A DNA stretch of 64,000 nucleotides from Styela clava. Lineage: Eukaryota > Chordata > Ascidiacea > Stolidobranchia > Styelidae. The notes under the pieces are model-generated. The model was given only the letters and a program-made list of their open reading frames with translations, did no database searches and was not told the origin of the DNA. Both the position numbers and the translations under genes were made by a program. Each line of letters opens with the position of its first letter. Positions within the stretch are counted from its first letter, which is position 1. The stretch lies in contig NC_135258.1 of NCBI RefSeq assembly GCF_964204865.1, positions 7,865,001 to 7,929,000 of the forward strand. Direction: 5' to 3'. Shown here piece by piece: positions 5,201-28,045 of this stretch.

Positions 5201-7078
5201 TTATTCACAGCTATCAATTGTATCATAAAGTAATTTTAAAACAGTCTGTTTGAATTGCTGTCGTTTCGTTCTTGGAAGATTCTCCATTTCTAAACATATT
5301 AATGAAAAAAATAAACTGTCTGCGGAGTTAGTAGATATAACATTTGGAACAGATAATGGAGTATTAATAATAGGATTTTCATCTGTTTGCTGCCTAAGTG
5401 CAGCAGAATATATATTCGTAAGAGTTTCTGAATTAATTTGTGAGTCAGTTTCTACTGCTACAGGGAGTGATAAATTATCAATTTCGGATTCACTGTCATT
5501 ATAATAACAATCTTGTTCTTTGTCAAGCATACTTCCATTGGTAGTGATGGGTAATCCATTGCTATCATTACTAATAGAAGGAATTTCAATGCAATCTGAT
5601 TCTTCTTCAATATTTTCTTGCGTAGTTTCGTGTGCATTACCATTATTGAACAATTCACATTGTAGTATGTTGTCAGTGCAATTTGCTAATTCCAAGCTTC
5701 TTAGAAGTGCCATTCTCAATACCTTGCATTTTTCATCTACTGATTTTCTACCACCATTAGACAATTTTGTGACACCATTTTTCTTATCTGGTGAAAGATT
5801 AACATCGTTATTCAATGATGAGCATTGACTCGATAATAGCATATCCCTTCTTCTTTTCAATGTTGTTAAAGGGATTCCATATTTCGCTGAAGTTTTTGAA
5901 GGAAGTTCGCCGTCCATTAAATCACTCAATGCATTTGAGAGATCTTTTTCAGACCACGTTCTTCTAGGCTTTGCAAATTTGCTTTGTTTCAATTTTTCAA
6001 TAATATTAGTAGGTAAAGTTAACCCAGAGTTCAAATTATTCACAGAACTATCAGAATTTGGAGTGACTGAAGTGGCCTCAGTAACATCTTCATGATTTAT
6101 GTTGCTCTCCTCTAATAGATTTTCTGGTATTTCTAGTTCAGTACTGCCCTGCATTTTTGGAATTTTTGAAGCCGAAACACCTATATCACCAATTTCTATT
6201 TCCGGAATGTTGTTTGATTGATCAAGTTTACTCTCATTAGAAAATATGGACCCTCGATCTTCTTTATCAAACGAAGTTGAATTCAACTTGAGAGCTTTGC
6301 CAGATATGAGAGCATCTCGCCTTCGTTTTAAAGTTGTAAGTGGAATGCCATATTTCCTAGCAGCCTCAGATGTATGTAATCCATCACTGACTTCTTTCAG
6401 AGCATGAAAAACATCAGTTTCAGTCCATGTTTTTGGAGGAATAACAGTCGTTTTCATATTATTTTTGTTTAATTTTTCATCTTTTATTCCATACTTTGCA
6501 GCAACAGCTAATATCTCAGACTCTAGATTTAATCCAGATGGTAAGGGTTCAATTTCAAGTTTTCCAATTTCAGAATCATTCCTTTTTGATCGTAACTTTT
6601 GAAATCTCTCGTACAAAGTTGACTGTGGAATTCCATATTTTCTGGCAACTGGTGTAAGTCTTTCACCTTGTTCCACTTCTAGTAGAGCGTTTGCAACATC
6701 ATTTTCTTGCCATATTTTTCGTTTTATAACATACTTTTCCCTCTGAAAAATATCGATTCCAGAAACAAATTTTCTGTGTTTTGCTCGTAATGTCACTTCA
6801 GGAATTTTATATTTTTGTGCAATCACTTTTAATTTACATTTTCCTTGTTGGAGTTCATCGATTGCATTCTCCAAATCTTCCTCTGTCCAGCATTTTCGTT
6901 TTCCATACAATCCAGATTTAACTCTATCATGACGATCAGATAGAGTTGAAGGAGGGATACCATATTTTACAGCTGTACGATGCAAAGCTTTACCGTCTTC
7001 AAGTTCTTGTAATGCATTCGTTATATCAACCTCAGACCAATTTGAAGATTTTCTCTTTGGCGGGTCCATGGTTGACAT
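5201..7078 (-). CDS. Five-repeat Pipsqueak-HTH / BESS putative transcription factor, intronless
   Basis: A single open frame of 625 aa. Five HTH_psq-type repeats are visible near residues 14-53, 64-103, 123-162, 218-255 and 374-411. Each has a Trp start (W[ST]E..), an A-L/I-.-E helix and a recognition region like RKYGIPLTTLKRRRD. A sixth, degraded repeat (LAVAAKYGI) lies near 190-198. Psq domains bind DNA in insect regulators, often in multiple copies. The linkers are acidic and Ser/Asn-rich. The last 40 residues (SLFFSLICLEMENLPRTKRQ, then FKQTVLKLLYDTI) resemble a BESS motif, a protein-interaction element. The same tail ends the three neighbouring pogo-type genes. The first ATG at 7078 is used (MSTMDPPKRK). 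Likely nuclear. Target genes and partners are unknown. Absence of introns could mean retro-origin or intron loss. Confidence 0.88.
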   Translation of the reverse strand: MSTMDPPKRKSSNWSEVDITNALQELEDGKALHRTAVKYGIPPSTLSDRHDRVKSGLYGKRKCWTEEDLENAIDELQQGKCKLKVIAQKYKIPEVTLRAKHRKFVSGIDIFQREKYVIKRKIWQENDVANALLEVEQGERLTPVARKYGIPQSTLYERFQKLRSKRNDSEIGKLEIEPLPSGLNLESEILAVAAKYGIKDEKLNKNNMKTTVIPPKTWTETDVFHALKEVSDGLHTSEAARKYGIPLTTLKRRRDALISGKALKLNSTSFDKEDRGSIFSNESKLDQSNNIPEIEIGDIGVSASKIPKMQGSTELEIPENLLEESNINHEDVTEATSVTPNSDSSVNNLNSGLTLPTNIIEKLKQSKFAKPRRTWSEKDLSNALSDLMDGELPSKTSAKYGIPLTTLKRRRDMLLSSQCSSLNNDVNLSPDKKNGVTKLSNGGRKSVDEKCKVLRMALLRSLELANCTDNILQCELFNNGNAHETTQENIEEESDCIEIPSISNDSNGLPITTNGSMLDKEQDCYYNDSESEIDNLSLPVAVETDSQINSETLTNIYSAALRQQTDENPIINTPLSVPNVISTNSADSLFFSLICLEMENLPRTKRQQFKQTVLKLLYDTIDSCE

Positions 7079-7669
7079 TTTATAATTCTACTGTCAACAC
7101 CATAGAACTACTTTAGCTGAGAATGATAGTCAAAAAATAATCGCAAGTTTAAAAAAATTCTAAGATAATGTACAGAAATCAGGAATGAGGCACAAAATAG
7201 CACTGACTCAAAAAATGTTATGCTGCCATTTCTGGCATAGTTGCACTTGTAGTCATGTTTATGATAATATCATTGCTGTGATGAAGACAATATGGATCTC
7301 TGTAAAATTCAGTACGAAACAGCGCACAAAAGTATATACATCATTGAAAAATTCAAACAATTAAATTAAATTTTAGATTACTCTAAAGCAGCAATACAGG
7401 AATTCTAAAAACTACGATTTTGTATCATCAACCTGTTATCATATAACACCATAGATAGCACATAAATTCCATATTGAAATTCCAGGTTCATTTGACAGAT
7501 GTGTATAACAGGCACTTTCAAGTTCAGATTTTTTCTTTGGAATAAGGGATAGCATATCGTGCATTGAAATTGAATATCAAAAAAATATTAATCAATATTA
7601 TATCCTTAACTAGCTAATACTTCTCACATATCAATCAATATTGTCTATTAGAATCAGATCATGATTGTT

Positions 7670-8930
7670 TCGGTAGAAGCAAACCCAGCCCAGCGAAAAT
7701 TTAGTGTTTATAAAGATTGCAAGACTGATAAGAACAGGCTGTACATTTGCCATTGTCTGGGGCATTCCTCACGTTGTGTCGAATTGGCAAAACTTAAGGG
7801 TCATAATATTTAATCCCTACAAACCACAAGGAATTCTACGAAATGCTTCCAGTAGTTGATGAAAGTTAGATCTCATGAGCAGAAAGACTATCTAAAAAAA
7901 AAACATTCATTGCAACTTTTGTAAAATTAAGCTTATTTAACTGTTTTCCATGCTGGGCTTTTTTCTATTTCCTTTAACCATCCCTGATTGATGATTTACA
8001 ATTTCTTTCGTATATTTGTTTAGTAATAAAGTTGGTAATGATTCTGAGAGGAAAAAAAAATGCAGTAATCAGTAGCAACAGCGGTCTGATAAAAATTGGA
8101 AGCTAGATAACCATTGTCATCAAGATTCAGAAGCAAGAATATTTTTCAACGTAAAGATAAGCTCACAAAAAGTGTCAAAAATATTGTGAAAGGGAATTAT
8201 TGACGTTTTTCAATGATAAGTTACTTCTATGATAACATAATAAAGGGGCCCTAGGTCCAATAAAATTGTTTTTATTCTAGAAAATTGAAAACCAAAAGGG
8301 TTAGGTCCAAAAAACTCCCAAAAAAAAAAAATTGGGGGGAGCACGATTTTTTTTATACCATCAAAATATGGCTTTCATTGTAACTTTGGTGGACCATGAA
8401 AACTAGACATCCTTGATGTAAGGTATTAGAGAAATATAAAAAACTAGAAAAATGGACTTAGCCCAATTTGGATTTCCTGCGTCGATATGTGTGACTCAAA
8501 TTAGTCCCCAGTGGTGTCTCTTTGAAGCGCAATGTCTGGAAACACCTTTTGGATGTCGGCCTTATCAGCTTTTAAAAAGATCAGCAAAAAAAACAGCGTG
8601 AAAGTTTTATCTCGAATAAGAGAAAATCATGATTGTTGGCAGACCATTAGGCGACAAATACTCACGGTAAGATAACAAATCAATTTAGAGGTATAGTTAT
8701 TAATTAACAAAAAGCAGACAGAATGTCCAAACGCTTCGGCACAAAATAACTCGAAACACAAATGAGAAACTGCAAACCCAGTGTGCGTATCACCTATGGA
8801 GATTGAAAATACATCTTTGTATTATAGAAGATATACCATCAAAATTCAGAGATATAAGCTAGTTAGCAAAAAGCAGACAGAATGTCTGAAATAAACCTGC
8901 GCGCTATGCAAGAAGAAATACAGGAATATA
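7670..8930. repeat. Conserved block downstream of pogo/BESS copy 1, split by an insertion
   Basis: Matches 13860-14500 in unit 2 and 18540-19030 in unit 3 (for example cgaattggcaaaactt and gtgtgactcaaattagtccc). The three copies keep similar bases but have indels that break any shared reading frame, so it is better read as conserved non-coding or 3'-flanking DNA than as a gene. In unit 1 the block is interrupted at about 7816-8480 by sequence absent from the other two, AT-rich with poly-A runs and no recognisable ends. Confidence 0.6.
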
Positions 8931-8938
8931 AACTGCCA

Positions 8939-10371
8939 TCACGACTCCTCACATTTGAGTAATCTCTCATGCAGTAGTCTCAAAACACTTCGTTTAAATC
9001 TAAGTTTTTCTTTAAAAGGCAATCTTTCCATATCCATACATATTGACGAGAAAAATAACCTGTCAGGAGAGCTGAAAATACTAAAGTCTGAGGTATTGAT
9101 GCTGTTCTCGAGTTTTGAAGACAGCGATGTTCGCTGTGGATTAGAAACCGCAATCTCTTCATCAGCCGGACCAGAATAAGTCTGCGATTGAAAGGGAAAT
9201 ATTGTTTCAATGTTCTCCGTACTATTTCCTATTGATGTTCCATTGCTTCCCGATAGAGAGAGCGGCGATGCTGAGTAGCTGAGAGATTCTAGTTGATTAT
9301 TTAGAGCACTTTCATTCAAGGAAGACTGTTGTTGTTGTTTTGAGCTATTTGTTCGGGTTACTGCAATTCTTGTTTGAGTGGAGATATTTTTCAGACTCGG
9401 TGAAGCGGAACTGCTAGATGAAGGTGGTGTATTAACTAACTCGCTATTGGGTGTTGTGGGCTTCTTCCTATTAATTCTAGGCTTCCATTTCAAAACTTTG
9501 GTATCCCAGTTCAGTCTATCAGTATTTATCTTTTGTCGCCTCAAAAATCGGTAATACCAGTTTGTTGCCCCTGTAAAACCCTCTATGCCGAGTTCTTTAG
9601 CCACTTGAACAGCTTTTTCTCTAACTTCCTTTCCAGTAACGGTTCCTCGGACTGCTCTCTGACTTAACAACCATTCCGCAACCTTTGAAAAATATTGAAC
9701 TTACAGAAATGCTGGGTATAGAATAGATACAGATAATAATGGAGTATACAAAACCTGATTAAAAAAAGTCTAACAGGATTAATCAGACCAAATTGGCTTA
9801 CCGGTACTTTGTGCAGAAGGGTATTCGAAATGAAGTTACTGGAATGACTTACCTAACAAGAATATTCTTCAACCCTAACTTAAGAATTGGTCAGTTTATT
9901 TACTACACTATGATATATTTTATTCTTGATGTCAGTGTGATGTTTAGAAGTGGAATATTCAAAATGAAATTACTAAAAAAGCAATCAATTTGAATAGGTA
10001 TTCCATTTCGAAAATATCTAAAACTGATCGTATATCAATTTGACAGTTACATGCATTAGAGAAACGAGATGAATTATATTAGCATAAAAAGAAACACTCA
10101 TTTGAAGTTTCCAATACAGACCTAAAACGTTAAAATGAACAATAAGTGAAATTTAAACCTTTCCATCTAAAAGAGGATATTTGCAGGGGGGTCCTCTGAA
10201 TGATCTTCGAGACTTGTCTGAAGCACGCAACGAATCTTCTTTCTTTCTCCATGTCCTTGCCATGGATTCATCAATGTTAAATTTACGTCCCGCCGCCAGA
10301 TTGCTATGTTTTTTAGCATAATTGATAACCTCAATTTTGAATTCCGCAGTGTAACTTTTACGTGTTGCCAT
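8939..10371 (-). CDS. Pogo/CENP-B-type DNA-binding and BESS protein, copy 1 (two exons)
   Basis: Exon 1 (10159-10371) encodes 71 aa beginning MATRKSYTAEFKIEVINYAK: the N-terminal Brinker/CENP-B-like HTH seen in pogo/Tigger transposases (RKFNIDESMARTWRKKED). Exon 2 (8939-9682) continues in phase 0 after an intron with donor gtttaa and acceptor ttcaaag. It gives VAEWLLSQRAVRGTVTGKEV, a CENPB-type second HTH ending in WYYRFLRRQKIN. A Ser/Thr/Gln-rich linker with a QQQQ run follows, then a BESS-like tail (RLFFSSICMDMERLPFKEKL). Total about 318 aa. The DDE catalytic domain of a pogo transposase is absent, so this looks like a domesticated DNA-binding protein. The tail resembles that of the psq/BESS gene next door. 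Role inferred: nuclear regulator. Confidence 0.85.
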
Positions 10372-10607
10372 TACGAGGACTCCAATTAGTTGGTAAGTAT
10401 CAGATTGTATTACTGTCAGAAAATTAATTTAAATATATGAAGTCAAGGAAAATTCTCAAAATAGTTCCAGCTTTTATTAATGTTTAATGAATTAGTAACG
10501 ATAATATGGACAAACTCATAATGGTTAAAAGAGTGCTAAGCCACAGTGAGACAGAAATTTTAGTCATAACTCATAATCACGGTTTTAATTCAACTGATTG
10601 AGAGAAC

Positions 10608-12000
10608 CAGGGATGGGGAGCTGGTATGAAGTCACAGCGACTCCAGCTTCAGCGTCAAAGTATATTTAAATTGTGGTTCCAGCTCAGATTCCATCGCCAT
10701 GGGCTTCAGGGTCGGCGCTGCAAATAACGCATGCTTTCACATTTTATCGATTGTTTTCCAAGTGTAGCGTGTTATTTAGGTTTTAAACAATTTTAAGACT
10801 GTCTTATGATCCTTTCCTTTTTTGTTCTTGCACATAACTGCAAATCCTTTGAGATTTATTTTATAATCATCGGCGATGAGGTGTTAAAGATAAATAAAAG
10901 GGCGGAATTCGCAAGCCAAATTTTTCACATTGTAAAACACTTAAATGAAACGGAAAGCACTATAATCTTCGTTTTAGGATGCCCGCAACAGATCGAAAAC
11001 GCCCATTCAGACATTGTAAATCTCACAATTTTGTGTGCCTGCAGCACATAATATTTCCTGGTTAGCTTAGGGAATCATATCGTTTTTATTTATGGGAAAT
11101 AAATTTAATGACGCTCAATCATGCTCGCGATCTACCTTTTTATCCATTCTAAAGCTATGACAGGATCTGATTAGACTTTTCCCCAGATTATATGAGATAA
11201 TTAATGGAAAGTATATTCATTCAATTTTTGTTAAAATATATTTATCGAACTTTTTCTAAGGATGATATCCTAAAAACAACATGAGTGGCAGCAATGCGAT
11301 AATGCAATATCGGTGTTGCAAAAACTAATCAGATTTGTGAAATTCACAAAAATATGAATCAAAACAAGATCTAATCGGGCACTTCACAACACATTTTTAT
11401 GTCCGCAAATTGCTATGGTATTTTAGAGTAGTGATGACTAATGATTTTATTTTGTCTACGCAACCGCAGGTTAAATTGAACACGTTCAAATTTAAAGAAG
11501 CAAAAAATTTCAAAAAGGCCAGTATCAGTCATGATTATTCGATTATTCACTTTGCGCAACAGAAGAATCATTATTTCTCAAAAAATTGGATTTTTCCATA
11601 AGTGGCGTAGTCGCGTAGGCTGTTTCTGAGGCCGTACCGCGAAGATTTCGAGAGATGTGTTTTTATCTACTAATTATGATTTATATGCATTTTTAATGTA
11701 CTAAATTAAAATTTACTTTCTGGAATTTTTTTGCAGTTATTGGGATTTTCTAACGGTGATGAGAAATTTGCAAGATTGCAAAAAATGTATTCAAATTAAA
11801 TATTATCCGACATTTCATTCAAAAAAATTTGGCATAGCGGAAATAGGAATCAAATTTGTGATATATCATTGCAATAGTGTTCACTATTAGCGCACTTTTT
11901 TGCGAAAAGTGAGAAGCACTTTCGCACTTTTTTTCAGGGACTGCGAAATAGCACTTTTCGACCAATTCGAAAATTTTCTCTTTGGTGGTTCCACTGACCT
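10608..12000. mobile_element. hAT-like element (CAGGGCTGGGGAGCTGG family), right end lost
   Basis: Left end cagggatggggagctgg follows gagagaac, the same site as the intact element in unit 2 (16508). The body shares long stretches with it (for example cttgcacataactgc, gcccgcaacagatcgaaaac and gacattgtaaatctc). The right terminal repeat is missing; the sequence runs into the left edge of unit 2. No transposase open frame remains. Confidence 0.7.
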
Positions 12001-13252
12001 TTTATATATCTTTACTAGCAACACCATAGAACTACATTAGCTGAGAATGATAAGAATAAAAAAGAATGGCCAGTTAAAAAAATTTATCATACCAGGTGCA
12101 CAAGGTAGGTTCAAGAAAAGGCAAAAAATCACAATAGTAAACAACGAAGATAATGTACAGAAATCAGGAATGAGACACAAAATATCACAAACTTAAAAAA
12201 TGTTATACTGCCATAGTTGCACTTGTAGTCATGTTTATGATAATATTTATTAGCTGAACACAACTTCGGTTCATGAATTCCCTCCTTGCTGTGCTGAAGA
12301 CAAATGAATCTGTGTAAGATTCATGACAAAACAGCAGGCAAAAGTATATACTGGTACATCATTGACAAATTTAAACTATTAAATTATAGATTATAATAAA
12401 GCAGCACTACAGGATTCTATAAACTATGGTTTTGTATCATCGAACTGTTTATATCACACTATAGTTCATATTAGAAAATTAAAATTTCCCAAGTCTATAT
12501 TTTTGTAAAATTTCATATAAAACATTCGAATTATGATCTATAGCCATGGAATTCCAGATTCGTTTAAAAGGTAGACTATTCATTGACAGAACAAAACATA
12601 TGAATTTAGCAATTAGACATTGCTGCCATTCAGCAGAAGCAATGTTTTCTCGATCGCCTCAGATTGCAAAATTAAATTAGCAAAATGCAGCTCTGACCAG
12701 AAAATAACTTCTATTTGCACTTTCCATTAAATAATTACCATACCGGTAATTGATATTCTCAAAAAAAAAGATTTTTCTGATTTCTCAAGATTTAAAACGC
12801 GATTGGATGAAAGTGAAAAGAAACAAAAAAGCAGTGATTAGCAGGGAAAGAAATACAAACAATATTTACATTAACCAGCGCGAGTATGGAGCAAGGAAAA
12901 TTAGATTCAAAAATCGGCAAATTAGTTGTTAAATTAGATTCAAATTTATTTGGAGATGTCAAAATTATCAGCAACGAATTGACTATTTTTACTGATATAT
13001 CTAATTTTAATCCATATGTATTGCTATATTACAATTTATCAATGTAGTTCGTACGCTGATATACGATGAAAAAGCATTAGAAAACATTCAGTTTCAGTTT
13101 CATTTACAGTCTAACCAGATATTAAAATCAGGCCTAAATAATTAAAGTTTACTGCAATTTGTATCATATGTTCATGATATCATATAATTATATTATAGGC
13201 TACTTTATAAAATATTTGAAAATTCTATATTCTCCCGATAAACCCTCTAGAA

Positions 13253-13567
13253 CAGGGGTGGGCAAGGTTTTAGGGCCAGGGGCCACAAATTTTACCCGTC
13301 TGGACTGGCGGGCCGGCCAAGTGAGTGTGACATAAAAAGTTACATTTTATGAACAATATTTACAGTCTTACAAAAGCAAAAGTGGAAAGTAATAAGCCTC
13401 GTGCTAAAACTCAATTTAATTTCAATCTCAACAAATTCCTTGAGCTATTTTTTTTTATCTAAACATTAAAATTTGGATTTATTTTGGTTGTGGCAGCATC
13501 ATGCGGGCCAGATTGAAGTACCAAGCGGGCCGGATTTGGCCCGTGGGCAAGTGTTTGCCCATGTCAG
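13253..13567. mobile_element. hAT-like MITE with perfect 8-bp TSD
   Basis: A 315-bp element. Left end caggggtgggcaaggtttta, right end in reverse complement ctgacatgggcaaacacttg; subterminal parts rich in gggccgg/ggcccg. Flanked by ctctagaa at 13245-13252 and 13568-13575. Non-coding. Confidence 0.85.
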
Positions 13568-14509
13568 CTCTAGAAGCACCTAATCAAAAAATATATAGAG
13601 CATAGCTCTCTGTGTGCAGATTAGCAAATAAAATCCAAATCATTAGCAGCAAAGTTAAAACAATTCTATACAGAAAATAATGCAATGATAACAACATGCA
13701 AAACATCAAACCGTCTCATCTAAATTCTCGATGTATAACAAGCACTTTCACGGTCAAATTTGGAATAAGCGAAAGTATATCGTGCATTGAAATAGAAGAT
13801 ATCAAAAAAATATTAATCAATATTTTATGCCTAACTGGCTAATAATTCTCACATATATCAGTCAATCAGATCACGCTTGTTTCAGTAGAACCATACCCAG
13901 TCCAACAAAAATTTAGTGTTTATAAGGATAGAAGGTCATAAATGATGAGAACAGGCTGTACATTTGTTAACTGCTGTCATTGTCTGGTCTGGGTCGTTTC
14001 TCACGTTCTGTCGAATTGGCAAAACTTGAGGGTCATATATGTCACTCAAATTAGTGACCAGTGGTGTCTCTTTGAAATACAGTGTCTGGAAACACCCTTT
14101 GAACACCAGCTTTCAAAAGAATCAGAAAAAAAACAGCATGAAAGTTTTATTTCAAATAACAGAAAGTCACGATTGGCAGACCGTTAGGCGACGAATACTT
14201 ACGGTAAGATAACATATTAATTTAGAGGTATAGTTAACAAAAAGCAGACAGAATGTCTGAAACGCTTCGGCACAAAAAAAAATCCGCAACACTAAGGAGA
14301 AACCGCAAACCCACTGTGCATATTATCTAAGGAGATTGAAAATTTCTGGCAATCCATGTGCTAAAATTAAAAAACATCTTTGTATTATAGAAGATATACC
14401 GTCAAAATTCAGAGATATAGGATAGTTAACAAAAAACAGACAGACTGTCTGAAATTGCAAAATACACCCGCACGTTATGCACGAAGAAATACGAAAATAA
14501 AACCTGCCA

Positions 14510-16267
14510 TCATGACTCTTCACATTTGAGCAATCTCTCATGCAGTAGTCTCAAAACACTTCGTTTAAATCTGAGTTTTTCTTTAAAAGGTAATCTTTCC
14601 ATATCCATGCATATTGATGAGAAAAATAACCTGTCTGGAGAGCTAAAAATACTGAAGTCTGAGATATTGATGTTGTTCTCGAGTCCTGGAGACAGCGATG
14701 TTCGCTGTGGATCAGAAACCGCAATCTCTTCATCAGCCGGACCTGAATAAGTCTGCGATTGACCGGGAGATATTGTTTCAATATTCTCGGGCCCATTTCC
14801 GACGGATGTTCCATCGCTTCCCAAAGAAAGCGGAGATTCTGAGCAGCCGAAAGATTCTAGTTGAATATTCAGAGCCCTTTCATTTATAGAAGACTGTTGT
14901 TGTTGTTGTTTTGAGCTATTTGTTGGGGTTACTGCAATTCTTGTTTGAGTAGAGACATTTTTCGGTCTGCGGGATTGAATCGATGATATTCTCGTTGAGG
15001 TGGAATCACTAGAGGAAGGTGTTGTATCCACTATCTTGCTATTGGGTGTTGTAGGCTCCTTTTTAACATTTCTAGGTTTCCATTTAAAAACTTTGGTATT
15101 CCAGTTCAATTTATCAGTATTGATCTTTTCCCGCCTTAAAAATCGGTAATACCAGGTTGATGTCCCTGTAAAACCTTCAATGCCGAGTTCTTCAGAAATT
15201 TGAACAGCTTTTTCTCTAACTTCCTTGATGGTAACTGTTCCTCTGAGTGCTCTCTGACTTAACAACCATTCCACAACCTTTGAAAAATATTGAACTTACA
15301 ATAATGCTGGGGATATTTACAGATAATAATGGAGTACACAGAACTCAATCAAAAAAGTCTAACAGGATAAATCAGACCAACTTAGCTTACCAAGCTTCAA
15401 GCCTTATTTAAGAATTGGTCAGTTTATTTACTACACTATGCTATACTATGTTCTTTATGTCAGTGTGATGTTTCGAAGTGGAATATTTAAAATAAAAATT
15501 ACTAAAACAGCAATCAATTTGAAAGGGTATTCCATTTTGAAAATATCTAAAACCGATCTTATATCGTTTTGACAGTTGCATGCATTAGAGCAGGGGTCGG
15601 CAAACTGCGGCCCGCGAACGTCCCGGCCTTCAATGCATGACACAAAAAATATTTATAAATTTATCAATACCTCCACATGAATTTATGCGGTAACGAATGC
15701 AGTTCTACGGCTCTTTTCTGCAGCGTCCGTGTTGAGTTGTATATCGTTTGCTCGATGTTGGTTGTACTTTTGAAATATGTTAATTTTGAACGGAACATAA
15801 ACGTCTCATTATAACACAGCAATAGAACGTGCGCAATAATTTTAAGTTTAATGTGACGATTGTTCCCAGGCAATGTGACGATTGTTCGGCCCGCACGCTA
15901 CCGAAAATGTGTTTATGCGGACCGTGAGTACATAAAGTTTGCCGACCACTGCATTGGAGAAAGAGATGAATTATATTAGCATAAAAACAAATACTAATTT
16001 ACAGTTTCCAATACCTAAAATGTTATTAAAATGAACAATAAGTGAAATTTCTACCTTTTTATCTAAAAGAGGATATTTGCTGGATAGTCCTCTAATTGAT
16101 CTCCGAGACTTGTCTGAAGCACGCAATAAATTTTCTTTCTTTCTCCATGACCTTGCCATGGATTCATCAATATTAAATTTACGTCCTGCCGGTAGATTGC
16201 CATGTTTTTTAGCATAATTGATAACCTCAATTTTGAATTCCACAGTGTATCTTTTACGTGTTGCCAT
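14510..16267 (-). CDS. Pogo/CENP-B-type DNA-binding and BESS protein, copy 2 (two exons)
   Basis: Same structure as copy 1. Exon 1 16055-16267 (71 aa, MATRKRYTVEFKIEVINYAK), donor gtagaaat; exon 2 14510-15277 in phase 0, beginning VVEWLLSQRALRGTVTIKEV. Predicted length about 326 aa. Both HTH domains are intact; the linker has a QQQQQ run and NVSTQTRIAV shared with copy 3. The BESS-like tail RLFFSSICMDMERLPFKEKL is identical to the other copies while the linker varies, which suggests purifying selection on the ends. The 777-bp intron is longer than in copies 1 (476 bp) and 3 (500 bp) because it contains a hAT MITE. Function inferred as for copy 1. Confidence 0.85.
15591..15951. mobile_element. 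hAT-like MITE in the intron of copy 2, empty sites in copies 1 and 3
   Basis: A 361-bp element with ends caggggtcggcaaact and, in reverse complement, cagtggtcggcaaact. Duplicated target cattagag (15583-15590) and cattggag (15952-15959), one mismatch. The aligned positions in copy 1 (near 10055, gcattagagaaacgagatga) and copy 3 (near 20200, gcattaaagaaataaaatga) are uninterrupted, so insertion followed the duplication. Confidence 0.88.
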
Positions 16268-16507
16268 TACGAGAACTCCAATTAGTTGGTAAGTATCAGA
16301 TTGTATTGCTGCCAGAAAATTAATTCAAATATGAAGTCATGAAAAATTCTCAAAAAGGTTCCAGCCTATCAATTTATGCTCAGATTAAATTTTGATAATG
16401 GATTGACGATAATATGGACAGACTCGTAATGTTAAATTAGTGCTAAGCCACAGTGAGGCAGAAATTTTAGTCATAATTACGGTTTTAATTCAACTGGTTG
16501 AGAGAAC

Positions 16508-17585
16508 CAGGGCTGGGGAGCTGGCTTAAAATCACAGCGACTTCAGCTTCAGCGTCACAGTATATTTAAATTGTGGCTCCAGCTTCGACTCCATAGCCAT
16601 GGGATTCAGGGTTGAAGCTTCAAATACCGCATGCTTTTACGTTTGTCGATTGTTTTCCAAGTGTAGCGTGTTATTTCGGTTTTAAACAACTTAAGGTCTG
16701 TCTTATGATCATTTTTTTTTGTTCTTGCACATAACTGTGAATTCTTTGAGAGTTATTATATAATCATCGGCGATGAGATGTTGAAGATAAAGAAAGCGGG
16801 GAATTTGCAAGCCAAATTATCCACATTGTAAAACACTAAAATGAAACGGAAAACAAAATAATCTTCGTTTTAGGATGCCTGCAACAGATCGAAAACGCCC
16901 TTTCAGACATTGTAAATCTCGCAATTTTGTGTGCCTGCAGCACATATTATTTCTCTGGTTGGCTTTGGGAATCATATCGTTTTTATTTATGGGAACTAAA
17001 TTTAAAGGCGCTCAATCATGCTTGCTACCTACCTTTTTATCGATTCTAAAGCTATGGCGGAAACTGATTAGACTTTTCCCCAGATTATGATATATGAGAT
17101 AATTAATGGAAACGGAATATAGTCATTCAAATTTTTTTTAAATATATTCATCAAACTTTTTCTAAAGGGGATATCCTAAAAACAACATGAGTGGCAGCAA
17201 TGCGATAATGCGAAGTCGGTGTTGCAAAAACTAATCAGATTTGTCAAATTCACAAAAATATGAATATTTTAAATGAGTTAAAACAAAAGCTAGGGCACCT
17301 AATTCAAAAGCACTTTCGCACTTTTTTTTTGACTGCGAAGCACTTTCGCACTCATAATTCGCTTATGGAGTTAACAATGGTCTGCATTAAATATAACTTT
17401 AAACTTATGAATTAATATTAGGAACTGAAATTCATAAAAACGAATTTTAATAAGCTGAAAAGGGTAGATTTTATCGTTTGGATCAGGTATCTAAAAGTTA
17501 TAAATATGAAAAAATGAGATGGTTAGGACTAGGAGCTGGAGCCACTAAAATGTCTGGTAGCTCGGACTCTAGCTCTCCAGCCCTG
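16508..17585. mobile_element. hAT-like element (CAGGGCTGGGGAGCTGG family) with perfect TSD
   Basis: A 1078-bp element. Left end cagggctggggagctgg, right end in reverse complement cagggctggagagctagagt. Flanked by gagagaac at 16500-16507 and 17586-17593. The aligned site in unit 3 (gggagaataagcctac, near 20783) is empty. It contains only short open frames and no recognisable transposase; related copies lie at 10608 and 26052. Confidence 0.85.
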
Positions 17586-17640
17586 GAGAGAACAAGCCAA
17601 TAAAACAAAATAATAATTAGATATAAGCATTAATCCCCCT

Positions 17641-20600
17641 GTAATAAGTAATTAGGCATCATTTAAAAATTTGAATACCGTATTAAATTTAAGATTCTAA
17701 AGCAACAATACAGGAATTCTACAAACTACAATTTTGTATCATCAACCAGTTAATTATATATATATATATCACGACATTGGTAGAATCAAAAAATCAAAAT
17801 TTCATACATCCCATATTTTTCATAACATTTCATATAAAACATTCAAATCACACTATAGCCATGGAATTCCAAATACCTTCAAACATAGACTATTCATTGA
17901 AAATCAAAACATCATAGGAATTTAGCAATTGGACAAAGTTTGCCCATTTGGCGAGTCTATATAGAAAAGGTTACACAGCTTCCTCTTTTGGTGTTTCAAT
18001 GTTGTAACTTGTAGTATTCAATATTTTCTTACTACCCAACTATATTTACTCAACTTCATCATCTCTCACAGCCTAAATTATACTTATATATAACCATATT
18101 AATGTTGGGTTAAGCCTACGCTTATTGCAGCTGTACTCCGATTGTAAAATTAGGATAGTAAAATTCAGCTTTAAGGTATAATCTGGTCCAGGAATGACTT
18201 CTATTCAATAATTACTGTAATTGACATTCAAAAAGAAAGAATTTTCTGATTTTTCTAGTTTTAAAACATGATTGGATATAAGTAAAAAGAAACAAATAAA
18301 AAAAGCTAAATAAAGGTTTTTTTTAGCTACGTTTCAATAAGGTTTGCAGTGGTTAGCAGGGAAAGTAGCTCTCTGTATATAACACGCACTTCCAAGGTCA
18401 AGTTTTATCGCCAAGTATTAGGTATTACTATAGTAAATGTAAAAAGAAAAAATTGGTATTTTTACAACTGGCTATTAATTATCACATGAATCAGTCATAT
18501 GTGTCTAATTTGATTTGGCACAAAGTTTGTTAGAAAACTGTCCACGCTTGTTTCGGTAGAAGCATTCCCAGTCCAACAAAAATATAGAGTTTACAAGGAT
18601 AGCCGGAGTCTTAAACAGTTCCCTAGCTCAAGCGTGAATTAAAAGTGATAAGAACACGCTGTACATCCGTTAATCGGTGGCATTTTTTTGTCTGGGTAGT
18701 TTCACCCAGTCTGTCGAATTGGCAAAACTTTGCGGTCATCGACGTTACTCAAATTAGTGACCAGTGGTGTCTTTTAGAAGCGCAGCATCTAAAAACACAC
18801 ATCGAACCTCGGCTTTATCAGCGGCAGGACATTAGGCGAAAAATACTTAAGATAACATATAATAATTTGGATTGTAATCCAAAGATGTAGTTAACGAAAA
18901 GTAAAAAGAATGTATGAAACGACCCAGCGATAAAATGCAAGCAACAAAAAAGAAAAAATGGGTACCTGCATATTATCTATGAAGATTAAAACTTTCTGTC
19001 GATCCATGGTCTAAAATAAACTGGCGTATATGCCATCATGACTCTTCACATTTGAGTAATCTCTCATGCAGTAGTCTCAAAACACTTTGTTTAAATCTAA
19101 GTTTTTCTTTAAAAGGCAATCTTTCCATATCCATACATATTGATGAGAAAAATAACCTGTCAGGAGAACTAAAAATACTAATGTCTGAGATATTGCTGTT
19201 ATTCTCCAGTTCTGCAGACAGCGATGTTTGTTGTGGAACAGAAACAGTGTCTACATTTGCATGATCTGAGTTCGTATGCGATTGGAGAGGAAATATTGTT
19301 TCAATGTTCTCAGTACCACTTCTTATTGATGTTCCATTGCTTCCAGAGAGGAAGAGCGACGATGCTGAGTAGCCGAGAGATTCTAGTTGATTATTTAGAG
19401 CACTTCCATTCAAGGAAGACTGTTGTTGTTTTGAGCTATTTGTTGGGGTTACTGCAATTCTTGTTTGAGTAGAGACATTTTTTGGTCTGCAGGATTGAAT
19501 CGATGTTATTCTCGGTAAAGTGTAATCTCTAGATGATGGAGTTGTATTCGCTATCTTGCTATTGGGTGTTGTGGGCTCTTTCTTATTAACATTTCTAGGT
19601 TTCCATTTCAAAACTTTAGTATTCCAGTTCAGTCTATCAGTATTTATCTTTTGCCGCCTTAAAAATCGGTAATACCAGTTTGTTGTACCTCTAAAATCTT
19701 CTATGCCGAGTTCTTTAGAAATTTGAACAGCTTTTTCTTTAACCTCCTTTCCGGTAATGGTTCCTCTGAGTGCTTTCTGACTTAACGTCCATTCCGCAAC
19801 CTTTGAAAAATATAGGACTTACAGTAATGCATAGATATAGTACAGATAATAATGGAGCACACAAAGCTTAATTTGAAAAAGTCCCAACAGTTTAAATCAA
19901 ACAAACTTAGCTTAACGGTACTAGTGTGGCAGGGTATTTAGAAATAAAAGTTAACTGATGACTTGATTAACATTAACAAGTATTTTCTTCAAACCTAATT
20001 TTAAAAATTGGTCAGTTCAATTTGCTACAGCATAATATATTATGTTCTTGATGTCAGTGGGTTGTTTTTCAAGTGGAATATTCAAAATAAAATTACCAAT
20101 TGTAAAAAATTACTACAACAGCAAACAATATTCCATTTTAGAAAAAAACTACCAGTAATATCGTCGATATCGATCTTACATCAACTTAACAGTTCTATGC
20201 ATTAAAGAAATAAAATGAATTGTGTCAGCAAACAAACAATCATTTACAGTTTCCAATACAGACCTGAAATGTCAAACTAAACAAAAAGTGAAGTTTCTAC
20301 CTTTTCTTCTAAAATAGGATATCTACCAGGGCTCCCTCTAAATGATCTCCGAGATTTATCTGAAGCACGAAACAAGTCTTCTTTTTTTCTCCATAACCTT
20401 GCCATGGATTCATCAATATTAAATTTACGTTCTGCTGCGCGGTTTCCATGTTTTTTAGCATACGTGATAACCTCAATTTTGTATTCCAAAGTGTAACTTT
20501 TACGTGTTGCCATTACGTGAACTCCAACTAGCTAGGAAGTATCAGATTGTATTACTGTCAGAAAATTAATTTAAAAATAAAGTCTTGGAAAAAACGTCAA

Positions 20601-20800
20601 AAATGTTCCAGCTGGCATATCAATTCAAGTTCAGATTGTATTTTGATGAATGACGATTGGCAATAATATGGACAGACACAAGTAACACAACATGTCCGGC
20701 TCATAATGTTAAAAGAGTACCGGTACAAAACCACAGTGAGACAAAAATTTTAGTCATATTCATAAGGTTAATTCAACTGACTGGGAGAATAAGCCTACAA
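17641..20800. repeat. Tandem segmental duplication, unit 3
   Basis: Third unit, recognisable from about 17690 (agcaacaatacaggaattct) to about 20800. It lacks the left-most promoter-like segment found at the start of units 1 and 2 and carries none of the hAT insertions of those units. It ends in ordinary intergenic DNA upstream of PSMD9. Confidence 0.75.
19036..20513 (-). CDS. Pogo/CENP-B-type DNA-binding and BESS protein, copy 3 (two exons)
   Basis: Exon 1 20301-20513 (71 aa, MATRKSYTLEYKIEVITYAK), donor gtagaaac; exon 2 19036-19800 in phase 0, beginning VAEWTLSQKALRGTITGKEV. About 325 aa. The second HTH is complete (GIEDFRGTTNWYYRFLRRQK) even though no ATG lies in that part of exon 2, so a simple ORF scan would miss its first 60 residues. 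The linker (NVSTQTRIAV, QQQ) and BESS-like tail match the other copies. All three copies are open across both exons with conserved splice sites, which argues against pseudogenes. No transposase catalytic domain. Confidence 0.85.
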
Positions 20801-21923
20801 AACAAAATAAAAATAGATATAAACACAAACTAATCCCAGATTAATTCAGCGGTGGAAATCATTCTGAACAACTCATAAACTCATACGTTACGATAGCCAG
20901 TAATATGAGGTATAAGAATCCACTGTAGGTTTCTTGCCCCTGATCATTATGCAAGGAGAAATAACATGCTTGGTATTACGTAATATGTATAAAACCTAAC
21001 AAGAAGAAAACAATATGAAATGAACAATGAAACAAAAATATCAAAGGAAAAAAACAAATATTGAAAGCAGCCTTTGAAGAAGTTCGATTATTTCAACTCC
21101 CACCCCATTTTACAAATCAGCATTTACTTGCTAATAATGTAGAAATATGAATTGATGAATATATTTCCCAAGTGATGATTGGAATCAGAAATGATGATCC
21201 CATGACAGTAGGCCTACATATTTAATCAATTATTACGGTGAATATTTTCATCGGAGCATAACAAATCTTCACAACTGTTGTCGTCAATTGCCATATTATT
21301 AAGATCTTAATAATCACTCATTTATTCATTTCAAAGCGTAGCCATAAAAAACAGTTTGCAATCCAATATTACCAATTACCAAGCCTAATAAATAATCAAT
21401 TCAAGACTAATAAACCAGATTAGCAAGAAAAGCAGGATGGCATTATAACAAAGTCTCTACCTTTTAAGCTCTCATGACAAGATTTCAATTATTAGTAGAT
21501 GAAGTGGGGAAAAGTGTTCACAATTTCGTGGTTTTGCCATAATCACCTGGTTATCAGATCACACAATGCAAGCTACAGATTGATGATTGAGGTAGAACAT
21601 TTTTATCTTTAAAATTCAACCATATCATATCGTGTTCATGAAGTTTTGATACAATCAACATATTTTTTAGGAAGCCAGTTCTCAATATAATTTACTTAAT
21701 AACCAGGTTTATTTCATTTTAACCAGTGTTCGTTTTATATTTACCTCATCCAATACACTCTTACATGAATTGAACACCATTAATAATTGGTGGAACAAAA
21801 CAAATCAAATTTTTTTTTACCTAATTTACCACTGGACTTCATGAACACCAGTACAGTGTTTAGGAATTTGATTCGAACTATGTGCAATGTTACTTTAAAC
21901 TTCTTTTACATTCTGCAACCTTT
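20801..21923. other. Intergenic, no supported feature
   Basis: AT-rich DNA between the tandem array and PSMD9. No repeat family, RNA gene or convincing open frame was seen; the 72-codon frame at 21787-22005 (plus) overlaps the end of PSMD9 antisense. Confidence 0.5.
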
Positions 21924-21929
21924 TTATTT
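21924..21929 (-). terminator. Poly(A) signal of PSMD9
   Basis: AATAAA on the minus strand, 47 nt past the PSMD9 stop codon. Confidence 0.55.
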
Positions 21930-21975
21930 GTCAAACCTTTCAACAAAGATTTGGGAAGACTATAAAGAGTCAGCT

Positions 21976-22596
21976 TTAAATAGGAACAATGTTACATCCC
22001 AATAAACCTCTCCCGCTCCATTTCTTTGGTGTGAGCATAAGTCTTTGTATATTCCCCTCCCGCTTAATTTTCACTTCAACATTTTTTCCTTCGCTGTGTT
22101 GAACCACTGTTGCAATTGATTGCAGATTTTGAAAATTTGTTTCATTTACTGATCCAAATTGAATTAATTCATCACCTACTCGGAGTCCAGCGAAATCAGC
22201 AGGAGAACCACTGGAAACGAGATTAATAGAAGCAAAGGCTGAAGGTGTATTTGTTATCGTTACATCAACCATTGGTACATCAGATGATGAGTCTGCCGCC
22301 TCTGGTTTGTTTTTAGAGTGCAAGCTATATAATTCTTCTTCAATTTGTTTCATTAAGTTTTTGTGGTCATTTTGCAAGCATGAAATTTTATTTCGACTTA
22401 TACGTACTTGATACACATCAATGTCATTTCTGGGAAAGCCTTCCGAGTCTACCAAGGGCTCAGTCATTCCTACATTTCCCTGAGAAGCCAAAACATCATA
22501 CATTTGTTTGATTTCTTCTTCAATATTATCCTTTTTTGAAATTAAATCCTTGATTTTTGCTCTGTTTTCCATTTCACCTAGTATAGAGTGCCTCAA
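21976..22596 (-). CDS. PSMD9: 26S proteasome assembly chaperone PSMD9 (p27)
   Basis: Family role: chaperone that helps assemble the proteasome base by holding ATPase subunits; cytoplasm and nucleus. The 206-aa frame has the expected order: an N-terminal helical region (KKDNIEEEIKQMYDVLASQG, then MTEPLVDSEGFPRNDIDVYQ and CLQNDHKNLMKQIEEELYSL), a short Ser/Asp linker, a PDZ domain near residues 110-190 (LVSSGSPADFAGLRVGDELI, VVQHSEGK) and the diagnostic C-terminus GRGLLGCNIVPI. Length is close to the usual 220 aa. Two start codons are possible: M1 at 22596 and MENRAKIK eight codons later. Intronless here, unlike the vertebrate gene. Lies downstream of PIGK on the same strand, about 600 bp apart. 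Confidence 0.95.
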   Translation of the reverse strand: MRHSILGEMENRAKIKDLISKKDNIEEEIKQMYDVLASQGNVGMTEPLVDSEGFPRNDIDVYQVRISRNKISCLQNDHKNLMKQIEEELYSLHSKNKPEAADSSSDVPMVDVTITNTPSAFASINLVSSGSPADFAGLRVGDELIQFGSVNETNFQNLQSIATVVQHSEGKNVEVKIKREGNIQRLMLTPKKWSGRGLLGCNIVPI

Positions 22597-23134
22597 TGCC
22601 AGAAAGGTGTAACTATTATCTAACTACTTTGCTAAAAAAATGCATAAATCACAATTAGTTAAATACTGAAACTATTGGAATCTATCCATCAGCATACCAG
22701 TACACAAAAGTCACAAATATCAATAAACATTTTCTTAAATAAAAAGTTTTCATTACTAGCCAAATTACCACAAAATAAACATCATAAATAATTACAATCG
22801 GACATGATCAAAATCCAGTAAATTATAGCACAAGTTAAATGTTAGATACAATGAAAAGCGTCATATCTATGGAAATTCTTGAGAAACAAATAAATGTCAG
22901 TTCAGCCCTCAGAAGATGCTTGCAATTCTGCAAATATATTATAGACCAAAATTTTGTTAGCAGCAGGTGATAATGCCCTGACGAGATATCTGTCGACTGC
23001 GAAGAGCTAAAAACAGAGCATCCATGCCAAAAGAGTATAGGATACTAAGCTACAGCATAGTCTGTGAAGCTGCATAGAAACTAAGGAATAGCCTAATTAA
23101 AAAGAAACTTTTTCCCTCTATATATCAAAATTCA
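22597..23134. other. Spacer between PIGK and PSMD9
   Basis: About 540 bp of AT-rich DNA between the PIGK poly(A) signal and PSMD9. It should hold the PSMD9 promoter and any 5' UTR; no TATA box or motif was recognised with confidence. Confidence 0.4.
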
Positions 23135-23386: not shown

Positions 23387-24529
23387 TCACATTTTCAATA
23401 GAAAAATGAAAATCACAGTCAAGATGATTGAAAAACAGGTAGATTGGGTTATGAGAGGTTGATCATTTATTTCCTGCGATTCTGATTGTTCGGAGTCAAA
23501 TGAAGGAAATTGTTCAACTTCCATTGATTTGACATCTTCTATCTGATGTGACTTTTCGTTCGCGCTGTCTGAATCAATTTTAATCGGTTTCAATTGTACC
23601 GATAAATCATTAACTTGCACTGATCTGACACTTCCGAAGAAATCAGTGATTAGGACATTATTAAGTGGACGGTTAAATTCCTTCGAAGTCCAGTAACCCG
23701 GTGTAGAAATACAAAGTTCTCGCGGGCATACTTTGAACAGTTGATTTATATTCTTTTTACTACTTGGCGTGATACGTTCCAAAAATTCTAACAGGTAGTA
23801 TGTGAACCTGTCAATAACGTACACACCGATAGCTGGATCAATGTGATGAGAAAGAGAATCTTCTCCAATTTGGCTACTGCCGATTGCAACTACGTTAGGA
23901 GAATAAACTCGTCTGTACATCGATACAGCCTGACATGTATCGATAATAAAGAGTAGTTCATTATATCTTTGTTTTTGCCACATTTGTTCGAATGCATCCC
24001 CTAATTCGACGTCCGAAACTTCCTCTGCATCTTGGAACTTTAGAAATCCTTCACCTCCATGACCTGTCATATATATAAGGATATTGCTTCTGTCATCTGT
24101 GTTTAATCGCTTAGATCTCGGTGTGTCCGGGGGTAGCCGACCAGTGAGAACTCGGATAAAATTTTCCACTGTCACCTCATATCCACGGTAGTCTACTTCA
24201 ACGTCTGATCCATATACATCAATAGCTTCATTTTGATTGTTGTATACCTTTGCTGGTCTTGGATTTCTAGCATTGCATGCCATGTCGTCAGCCAACATTA
24301 AGATAATGTGACTGTCCGGAATTCCCAATCTTTTGACGCTCCTATAAACAGATAATGCATTTGCAACATGGCGATAATTAAACCAAAATCTTGATGTACA
24401 GACTAAAACAGCCCAGTTGTTGGTGTGTCTGCTTTTCTGGAAGAATTGATCAACTTGAGGTTCCGCTTTTAAAGATGAACCATAGTGAGCAGAAACAATC
24501 AGCAGCAACAGTATTTCTGCGCGTAACAT
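23387..24529 (-). CDS. PIGK: GPI-anchor transamidase catalytic subunit (PIG-K / GPI8)
   Basis: Family role: C13-family cysteine protease of the ER GPI-transamidase complex, cleaving the C-terminal signal of substrate proteins and attaching the GPI anchor. The 380-aa frame has a signal peptide (residues 1-21, hydrophobic EILLLLIVSAHYG) and a protease domain (NNWAVLVCTSRFWFNYRHVA). His157 in YMTGHGGEGF and Cys199 in FIIDTCQA form the dyad, 42 residues apart as in the human enzyme. Further family motifs are VAIGSSQIGEDSLSHH and GVYVIDRFTYYLLEFLE. A C-terminal hydrophobic helix (FSIILTVIFIFLLKM) ends the protein, as expected for a membrane anchor. Length is near the human 395 aa. Intronless here. 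The first ATG directly precedes the signal peptide. Confidence 0.96.
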   Translation of the reverse strand: MLRAEILLLLIVSAHYGSSLKAEPQVDQFFQKSRHTNNWAVLVCTSRFWFNYRHVANALSVYRSVKRLGIPDSHIILMLADDMACNARNPRPAKVYNNQNEAIDVYGSDVEVDYRGYEVTVENFIRVLTGRLPPDTPRSKRLNTDDRSNILIYMTGHGGEGFLKFQDAEEVSDVELGDAFEQMWQKQRYNELLFIIDTCQAVSMYRRVYSPNVVAIGSSQIGEDSLSHHIDPAIGVYVIDRFTYYLLEFLERITPSSKKNINQLFKVCPRELCISTPGYWTSKEFNRPLNNVLITDFFGSVRSVQVNDLSVQLKPIKIDSDSANEKSHQIEDVKSMEVEQFPSFDSEQSESQEINDQPLITQSTCFSIILTVIFIFLLKM

Positions 24530-24943
24530 TTTTCAAGTTTGGATATCGCTCAAAACAGTAAACCAACTTGAAATGATCTTTGAAACTAAATATAACCTTT
24601 GAAGTATTAGCAACAATGATTCAGTCAATTAAATGTAAGAATGTTGATTTGATAGGACACAGTTCTCCATTTTCAAGAATGTCCTGATATTTAGATCGAT
24701 GAAGATCTTAAAAAATCTCTCATTTACACCAGAAACGAGGGCGTCTGGTATTAGAGCATGCATAAGATAAAAAATACTGTAATAATGAATAATATTAGGA
24801 AATCCCATAAAAATAATGTTTTTGCTACGAGCTTTCAAATGATATGGTAAATTGTCTTTAAATATGGAGAGTTCTTCTTGGAATCTGGGAACTGTAAAGT
24901 ACTGTGATTTGGTGATACTGGAGGACCTTCTAATCTTCTAGAA

Positions 24944-26051: not shown

Positions 26052-28045
26052 CAGGGCTGGGGAGCTGGTTCGAAATCATGATGGCTCCGGCTCCTGCTCC
26101 GGAGTGGCAGTGTATTCAATCTTTAGCTCCAACTCCGGCTCCGGAGCTTAATTTTTTTATGCCGGAGCTGGCTCCAGCTCCGGCTCCATAGCCATTATCA
26201 GTAGTGCAGCCCAATAACGCATTTGGCTAATTGTTTTCTAAGTGTGGCATGTTATTTAGGCTGTAAACACCCTTCAAGTCGGTGTCATGATAATTCCTTT
26301 TTATTCCTGCATGTAACTTGTGAATCCACTGAGAGTTATTATATGCTGTATTTTCGGGCGAATCGGTCTACCCAGCATATAAGGGTTTTACATATAACCC
26401 CACAATAAGACGGGAAAGAAAATCTGCTTCTGGAATGGTCGCAGCGTTTGCGCATTCGGTAAAATAGCTCATAATGACTTTTTCTACCACATAATATTTA
26501 ACCTATAATAACTGTCTTTTTATTTTAATTTAATTGTGTTCAACATAACTGGCAATCATGCCGGCCAAATAAAATCTGTCGTGGGCCATTCTAACGCAAA
26601 ACTTATGGTGTTTTCTGTTTTATTTTTAGTATTTTATAATATCGCTTTTTAATCGGGAAAATTTGGTTTGCGTATTGACTTCTTTATTTATCTTAGAATT
26701 TCATCACCGATGATTATGTAATAACTCGTTTTCTCACAAATATGGTGCGTGACACAAAACATATGTCTTGAGAAATTGTGATTAAGGGAAAAATAAACAC
26801 TGAAATAAAAGATGTTATGGCCTAATGTTTATGGCGACGAAAACAATTGACGCTTTTCACGAAATGCAACGCACATGTGATAGTAACGGCAATAGCCCTT
26901 CAACTCATGCTAATTTAAACTGGCCTGACGGGGATGCAGTATTTTATGGTACAAATTGAATAAGCAGACCCAAAATAATGGACATTACCATCGTCACCCA
27001 ATTAGATGCCGTCCCCCTCTCCCAAATCAGGCCAAAAGTTGGTTCTAGAATCGAGGCTTTTTCATAATTATCAGCGATGAGATGTTAAAGATAAATAGAG
27101 AAGTCAATTCGCAAGCCGAATTTTCACATTGGAGAGTTATTATAAGATTCTAAAATGAAACGGAAAACACTATAAACTTTGTTCTAGGAGACTCCCAACA
27201 GCTAAAAAAAATGCCTTGTTAATCTCATTATTTTTTTTGTCTACGACATATTATTTACCGGTTGACTTTGAAAATTATACAGTCACTAAAATAAATCTAA
27301 ACGCAATCAATCTTACTCGCGATATACTTTTTACATATTCAAAAAATAACAATGGAAATTGATGAGACTTTTCTCCAGAACATGCTATGTTATGGATCAA
27401 AACAAGATATACCGTAATGGGGCACTTTGCCATACATTTTTATGATAGGTGACTGGTGCGGTGCATTTTGGAGTAGTTAAACCTTTCTTTTGTCGTAAAA
27501 CGACTCAATCTCGAGATAAGTTGAACAGAATTGAAGACATTTGAAATGGATTGGATATTCAACGCCACGAAAAAATCATAATATGTTACATGGAAATTCC
27601 AAAATCACTTCTTCGAAAATCCCTGGCCATTAGGGCTTTTGAGCTTGACCGCAATCATGAAAAATTGCAGCTTAGTGGAAATGAGAATCAAAATTTTGAT
27701 AAAAGCGAACCGCTTCAAATTTTGATACTAAACTTTCAAACATACAGAATAACTGGAAACTTTTTAAAAAATATTAGGAACTAAAATTTTTAAAATGAAT
27801 TATAAGCTGGAAAGAAAAGATTTTATCATTTGTAACGCTATCAGAAAAAAATTATAAATTTGAAAAACAAAAAATGAGATATTTAGGAGCTGGAGCCTGG
27901 AGCCACTAAATTTTTGGTAGCTCCAGCTCCAGCTCCAGCTCCATCTGTTATGAAAAGCTTGGCTCCAACTCCGACTCCGGCTCCATCAAAATGTAACGGC
28001 TCCATGGCTCCAGGCTCCGACTCCAGCTCCAGCTCCCCAGCCCTG
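26052..28045. mobile_element. hAT-like element (CAGGGCTGGGGAGCTGG family), 2.0 kb, perfect TSD
   Basis: Left end cagggctggggagctgg, right end ccagctccccagccctg: a perfect terminal inverted repeat of 17 bp, extended by ctccag/ctccgg-rich subterminal DNA. Flanked by gttctagg at 26044-26051 and 28046-28053. It sits exactly in the right target duplication of the 24944 element. Short open frames only. The subterminal microsatellite produces a spurious Pro/Ala/Ser frame at 27914-28117. Confidence 0.9.

Follow-up and report, generated by a model that had tools for sequence, protein, structure and literature searches.

CENP-B binds DNA through a double helix-turn-helix (HTH), and its C-terminal part dimerises through a domain that differs from the BESS motif; CENP-B itself is not known to carry BESS. 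The joining of a transposase to a further module is a known route to new DNA-binding regulators. Among the vertebrate pogo cases, the DDE domain is described as fully retained in all domesticated genes studied (PMC7386202). The BESS motif of BEAF is sufficient for BEAF-BEAF interaction and is essential in Drosophila, and the last part of the BEAF-32 middle region is poorly conserved (PMC5021357). MADF-BESS proteins likewise homodimerise via BESS (PMC10573801). Here we describe three genes, c1, c2 and c3, that lie in a 64,000-nt stretch of the Styela clava genome (NC_135258.1, positions 7,865,001 to 7,929,000; hereafter the window, whose numbering is used throughout). We consider it likely that c1–c3 arose by host domestication of a transposase of the pogo superfamily with BrkDBD plus HTH_Tnp_Tc5 domains, that they lost the DDE domain and gained a BESS tail, and that they act as dimerising DNA-binding regulators. 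The genes look like transposon-made host regulators because the DNA-binding half is kept, the DDE domain is gone and a pairing tail is present.

The three genes have two exons each and lie head to tail on the minus strand. Exon 1 of c1 (10159..10371) encodes the BrkDBD helix-turn-helix; a phase-0 intron of 476 nt (9683..10158, GT...AG) separates it from exon 2 (8939..9682), which encodes most of HTH_Tnp_Tc5, a Ser/Thr/Gln-rich linker and the BESS tail, and ends in the stop codon. The same arrangement is found in c2 (exon 1, 16055..16267; phase-0 intron of 777 nt, 15278..16054, which holds a 361-nt insertion; exon 2, 14510..15277) and in c3 (exon 1, 20301..20513; phase-0 intron of 500 nt, 19801..20300; exon 2, 19036..19800), with predicted products of 318, 326 and 325 amino acids for c1, c2 and c3, respectively. 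There is no internal stop in any of the three joined frames, all three introns have GT donors, and the acceptor TTTTTCAAAG is common to all three. This acceptor looks weak, as it might if the gene models were in error and exons 1 and 2 came from separate transcripts. We regard such an error as very unlikely: the splice join falls after residue 71 and the HTH_Tnp_Tc5 match (residues 65–125) crosses it in all three proteins, an alignment of c3 to CENP-B is gap-free around the join, and the translations of exon 2 contain no Met ahead of the tail in any copy. In all three copies, an acceptor resembling TTTTCTGACAG is conserved ~42 nt ahead of the ATG (10371, 16267 and 20513), in the form TTTTCTGGCAG in c2; this motif could mark an intron in the 5′ untranslated region or a site of trans-splicing.

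We next consider the domains of the three proteins, for which the curated Pfam cut-offs are 22.2 bits (HTH_Tnp_Tc5), 23.4 bits (BrkDBD) and 21 bits (BESS). All three families were over cut-off in all three proteins, with scores for c1, c2 and c3 of 35.9, 39.5 and 41.2 bits for HTH_Tnp_Tc5, 33.9, 30.4 and 24.8 bits for BrkDBD, and 30.2, 31.1 and 30.6 bits for BESS, which is C-terminal. CENP-B_N fell short of its cut-off for c1 and c3 and was unlisted for c2. For c3, the sole copy queried, the best solved relative was the DNA-binding domain of CENP-B (structure 1hlv; E 1.6e-5, residues 28–121), in an alignment that runs over the splice join; at E≤10 there were four further matches, all with E-values of 0.23 or worse. 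Pfam listed no DDE family at E≤1 in c1–c3, both DDE_1 and the KRAB domain of POGK being absent, and no MADF at E≤1, which places these proteins outside the MADF-BESS definition. The flanks were scanned for DDE as minus-strand translations with stops read as X, the introns and the plus strand lying outside the scan; no Pfam family was found at E≤0.5 in any of nine frame translations of 7088–8938, 10500–14509 and 16400–19035. DDE_1, which marks an active pogo element, was thus seen neither in the c proteins nor in the scanned minus-strand flanks. An alternative DDE-coding exon near the c genes was a candidate that we rejected for the minus-strand flanks, given the nine translations free of Pfam families. 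A first-pass annotation, made from the letters of this DNA alone, had proposed three tandem open genes with conserved splice sites, each with a pogo/CENP-B-type HTH pair divided by one intron, no DDE domain and a BESS-like tail. Each of these points was borne out: the genes lie where the annotation had placed them, the phase-0 intron falls inside the HTH_Tnp_Tc5 match in all three, the profile search that the annotation had suggested finds both HTH families, and the tail is a real BESS motif.

To place the genes in their genome, we searched the 376.6 Mb assembly from which the window comes. With exon 2 as the query, there were four matches at E≤0.001, one to each copy and one to the tail of an adjacent gene, indicating that the c genes are present as three copies in one tandem array and are not dispersed. 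With exon 1, there were 38 matches at E≤1, comprising the three copies, 26 others at E≤0.001 and nine weaker ones, with the best group ~42% identical. When c3 was compared with five of the exon-1 match loci (L020–L024), in four of them a single match, unbroken by any intron, extended across the second HTH. We fetched seven pogo-like loci (L025–L029, L033 and L034) and submitted the open reading frames (ORFs) of three (L025, L027 and L033) to Pfam. All three carry BrkDBD, HTH_Tnp_Tc5 and DDE_1 over cut-off; DDE_1 is partial in L027 and complete in the other two, of which L033 is a weak exon-1 match (24% identity, E 0.47). Because these ORFs combine the same DNA-binding pair with DDE_1, pogo elements with that pair are present in this genome. 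Pogo relatives with open transposase ORFs, together with BESS-bearing Harbinger elements elsewhere in the genome, lend some colour to the idea that c1–c3 are a still-mobile pogo variant that spread locally after capture of a BESS tail, such as ORF2 of PIF/Harbinger elements carries. This idea was disfavoured already and we give it almost no credence, since there are just three copies at E≤0.001, all in one array, since no DDE was found in the scanned minus-strand flanks, and since the long flanking stretches common to the copies fit segmental tandem duplication. We also found no inverted repeats of at least 40 nt in 7000–23000, a weak argument because shorter terminal repeats would escape. A scan of IMG/VR with the exon-2 alignment gave 282 pattern matches, none of which was confirmed.

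To measure selection, we fitted a codon maximum-likelihood model to the three paralogues and compared the ratio of nonsynonymous to synonymous substitution rates (omega) with 1 by a likelihood-ratio test. The overall omega was 0.359 (p=2.5e-10), indicating purifying selection among the paralogues, to which the estimate is confined. By region, omega was 0.251 for the first HTH (DBD1; p=0.0015), 0.475 for the second HTH (DBD2; p=0.042), 0.492 for the linker (p=0.002) and 0.026 for the 47-residue tail (p=1.2e-6), making the tail the most constrained part of the c proteins. Between c1 and c2 the tail has nine synonymous changes and no nonsynonymous change, and the introns of the two genes differ at 48 of 405 sites. 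In the three-way protein alignment every gap lies within the linker, and residues 1–138 are gap-free. The introns of the three copies differ at 12–23% of sites, a divergence that decaying duplicates, left open by chance, might also show. That c1–c3 are pseudogenes of this kind is nonetheless highly improbable given three long open frames, common splice signals and the overall omega.

Copies of the array also appear to have exchanged sequence. The flanks, exon 1 and the intron pair c1 with c2, unlike the first part of exon 2, as judged from site counts with no significance test. In 9260–9712 and its c2 and c3 counterparts, site patterns shift from mostly c1=c2 to c1=c3 or c2=c3. This mosaic structure of exon 2 suggests gene conversion between the copies.

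The tail is shared beyond the array. A single-ORF gene on the same strand next to the array (5201..7078, minus strand) encodes a 625-residue protein with pipsqueak-type HTH repeats (HTH_psq, 73.4 bits over three stretches by Pfam; five repeats by reading of the sequence) and a C-terminal BESS-like tail. The first-pass annotation had not connected this gene, with its related tail, to the array. Of the last 42 residues of the encoded protein, 20 agree with the c1 tail, the protein matches c1–c3 by blastp at E 7e-10 to 5e-11, and the tail alignment between c1 and this neighbour scores 109, a value that 5000 shuffles, reaching at most 42, do not approach. On its own the neighbour's tail scores 12.1 bits against the BESS cut-off of 21, so it is BESS-like by relationship and not by the Pfam rule. 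Searching the whole genome with the c1 tail retrieved c1–c3, then the adjacent gene (E 1e-6), then a 338-residue ORF on contig C9 (E 3e-5), and beyond these three matches at E 0.4–0.8. The reverse search concurs that the best match of the c1 tail outside the array is the adjacent pipsqueak-repeat gene: at E≤1 the neighbour's tail found, apart from itself, only c1–c3 (E 4e-7 to 2e-6) and the C9 gene (E 0.006). The C9 tail found itself, c1–c3 (E 6e-5 to 8e-5), two terminal exons on contig C4 (E 0.009 and 0.025), the adjacent gene (E 0.012) and a MADF-BESS gene (E 0.8).

The C9 ORF (C9:19702046) carries ZSWIM3_N, a transposon-type domain, at 42.8 bits (cut-off 27.8), and its tail alone scores 20.0 bits against the BESS cut-off of 21. 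The two C4 terminal exons with BESS-like tails (L045, 3366–3476; L046, 3283–3393) lie near FLYWCH-like exons, with one ORF over the FLYWCH cut-off (L046:3–434, 35.8 bits) and another under it (13.5 against 23.6 bits); they possibly join a FLYWCH DNA-binding domain to this tail through putative exon links. The first-pass annotation's family of three therefore stands in that no further copy of exon 2 was found at E≤0.001, but not as a boundary for the tail, which also occurs in the adjacent pipsqueak-repeat gene and the ZSWIM3_N gene. We offer tentatively, and with less than even confidence, a broader proposal: that, within this one genome, DNA-binding domains of transposon type but unrelated to each other have come to share one BESS-type tail (pogo BrkDBD plus Tc5 in three genes, pipsqueak repeats, ZSWIM3_N and perhaps FLYWCH at the two C4 loci), that regulators with this tail can pair while reading different DNA sites, and that the pogo genes acquired theirs by local exchange with the adjacent pipsqueak gene. 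The tail may have passed from the neighbour or to it, or both genes may have received it from a third.

The strong constraint on the tail (omega 0.026, against 0.475 for DBD2 and 0.492 for the linker) and its relationship to the adjacent gene's tail could also be read as a sign that the tail is the working part, with the transposase HTHs drifting and the c proteins acting as modifiers that pair with the adjacent pipsqueak-repeat protein or other BESS partners without DNA specificity of their own. We consider this unlikely, since DBD1 is itself constrained, both HTHs score over their Pfam cut-offs in all three proteins, and the first 138 residues align without a gap. Even so, several observations count against domestication into a DNA-binding regulator as we propose it. 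Constraint on DBD2 is weak and close to that on the linker, and because of this, specific DNA binding may have been lost. The nonsynonymous divergence between c1 and c2 (0.095) is not far under their intron divergence (0.129), and pairwise synonymous divergence in exon 2 is uneven and blurred because its ancestry is mosaic. The DNA-binding half of c1–c3 shares just 27–38% identity with the four pogo ORFs compared, an identity that singles out no source element for the c genes. With respect to the tail, C9 scores 99 against c1, a narrow margin below the neighbour's 109, and a small tail tree supports the grouping of c1 with the neighbour at 0.53. Finally, AlphaFold models of both exons are of low confidence and back a helix pattern and nothing more: helices at 9–22 and 25–57 for exon 1 (mean predicted local distance difference test score, pLDDT, 60.6), and for exon 2 three helices in the second HTH region, a long gap, and two helices in the tail (mean pLDDT 42.7).

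The claims of the first-pass annotation about selection fared unevenly. It had put forward a dN/dS comparison between copies as a check, and the overall ratio is not near 1. It had also described conserved ends and variable linkers, a description that holds for the tail and for the indels but not for the second HTH, whose omega is similar to that of the linker. In the same way, its suggestion of a regulator family made from a transposase is upheld by the transposase double HTH, the real BESS motif, purifying selection and the lack of any DDE found, and is weakened by a second HTH that is not clearly tighter than the linker. The c genes have three of the features by which pogo-derived domesticated genes are recognised: pogo-type domains, a single locus and purifying selection.

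If c1–c3 are domesticated regulators, the two N-terminal HTH modules would bind DNA bipartitely, in the manner of CENP-B, with the Ser/Thr/Gln-rich linker serving as a flexible spacer. Through the BESS tail, each c protein would pair with a second copy of itself, with its two sisters and possibly also with the pipsqueak-repeat protein encoded next door, such that DNA sites might be held by dimers or oligomers in the manner of BEAF-32. The likeliest output would be transcriptional or chromatin regulation, its targets being either genes or pogo-element copies that carry related sites. Transcription, splicing, DNA binding, dimerisation, hetero-pairing and regulatory output of c1–c3 are all predictions from sequence.

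We also surveyed BESS across the genome. BESS was matched at 48 places at E≤1, 45 of them over cut-off, including c1–c3, and by comparison three of 14 control genomes had a BESS match and none had one over cut-off. A Harbinger-type transposase was found near BESS at 20 of the 22 over-cut-off places tested outside the window; L032, which carries MADF and BESS by Pfam, and 19 over-cut-off places were left out of this test. The 12 best BESS loci (L005–L016) all have such a transposase within the 3.1 kb analysed, L030 and L031 both have a transposase ORF near BESS (identified as DDE_Tnp_4 by Pfam for L030 only), and six of the eight loci L043–L045, L047–L050 and L052 have a Harbinger-type transposase. 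No Harbinger-type transposase was found near L046 or L051 (the C9 gene), both of which have BESS under cut-off. Thus, BESS in this genome is often carried by PIF/Harbinger elements, which are plausibly the ultimate source of the motif. In insects, a PIF transposase and MADF proteins have been co-domesticated (PMC9710019).

The DNA around the genes bears on the origin of the array. The DNA that separates c1 from c2 includes a relic of the pipsqueak gene's 5′ end (11960..12084, minus strand; 82% identity to 7035–7159). The simplest reading is that the array arose by tandem duplication, the duplicated segment reaching from within the beginning of the pipsqueak gene to a point upstream of a c gene. 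The insertion in the c2 intron (15591–15951, 361 nt) has the ends CAGGGGTCGGCAAA.../...TTTGCCGACCACTG and is flanked by CATTAGAG/CATTGGAG, and c1 has one CATTAGAG at the matching place (10054); the insertion, which resembles a non-autonomous hAT-type element, looks to have arrived after the duplication. A second similar-looking element, with CTCTAGAA on both sides, is at 13253–13567, between c1 and c2. Pieces of 26230–27923 have 76–79% identity to DNA upstream of c1 and c2. A tblastn search with the three c proteins found nothing at E<1 at 26–28 kb of the window, and on that search we rejected a fourth gene copy there; because of this lack of a match we treated the pieces as a dispersed repeat, although they may instead be a remnant of another duplication.

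Elsewhere in the window, two apparently intronless single-ORF genes encode a Nas2_N/PDZ protein (21976–22623), presumably PSMD9-like, and a peptidase C13 protein (23387–24532), presumably PIG-K-like. The window also contains a Fibrinogen_C ORF over cut-off and a collagen-like ORF under cut-off, and its genes are apparently intron-poor. At 60753–62234 there is a tandem array with a period of 372 nt (four copies, 91% matches), with inverted partial copies close by. Scans of the window for tRNAs and for Rfam families at the gathering threshold found nothing.

Compared with the known ways in which transposases have become regulators, the c genes stand out in that the DDE domain is gone, the module joined on is a pairing tail best matched by that of the gene next door, and pogo elements with the same DNA-binding pair persist in the genome. 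The donor type, the tail relative, the duplicates and a partial relic all lie in a stretch of ~16 kb or else in the same genome, which should make it unusually easy to test how a transposon might become a regulator. POGK, derived from the pogo element ‘Passer’ in mammals, resembles the c genes in having N-terminal BrkDBD/HTH_Tnp_Tc5 domains in a host gene together with an extra module, but POGK keeps DDE_1 and has KRAB, whereas the c genes have no DDE that we found and a C-terminal BESS (PMC7386202). CENP-B shares the bipartite pogo DNA-binding domain (1hlv) and differs in that its transposase-derived core is retained (PMC7386202). BEAF-32 of Drosophila has the same order of an N-terminal DNA-binding domain, a middle region and a C-terminal BESS, but its DNA-binding domain is a BED finger and that of the c genes is a pair of pogo HTHs (PMC5021357). 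The MADF-BESS factors Adf-1, Stonewall and CP60 also have a C-terminal BESS, with an N-terminal MADF instead of BrkDBD plus Tc5 (PMC10573801). An animal-wide survey of transposon-derived factors names CENPB, HTH-Psq and FLYWCH, and its main text does not contain the term ‘BESS’ (PMC10027918). BrkDBD/HTH_Tnp_Tc5 joined to BESS was not found in the titles and abstract openings of the open-access literature, among the matches listed. To that extent the first-pass annotation’s view that the combination lies outside described families holds, but its kind has precedents in POGK and BEAF-32. The c genes are a new combination of this known kind, not a new class.

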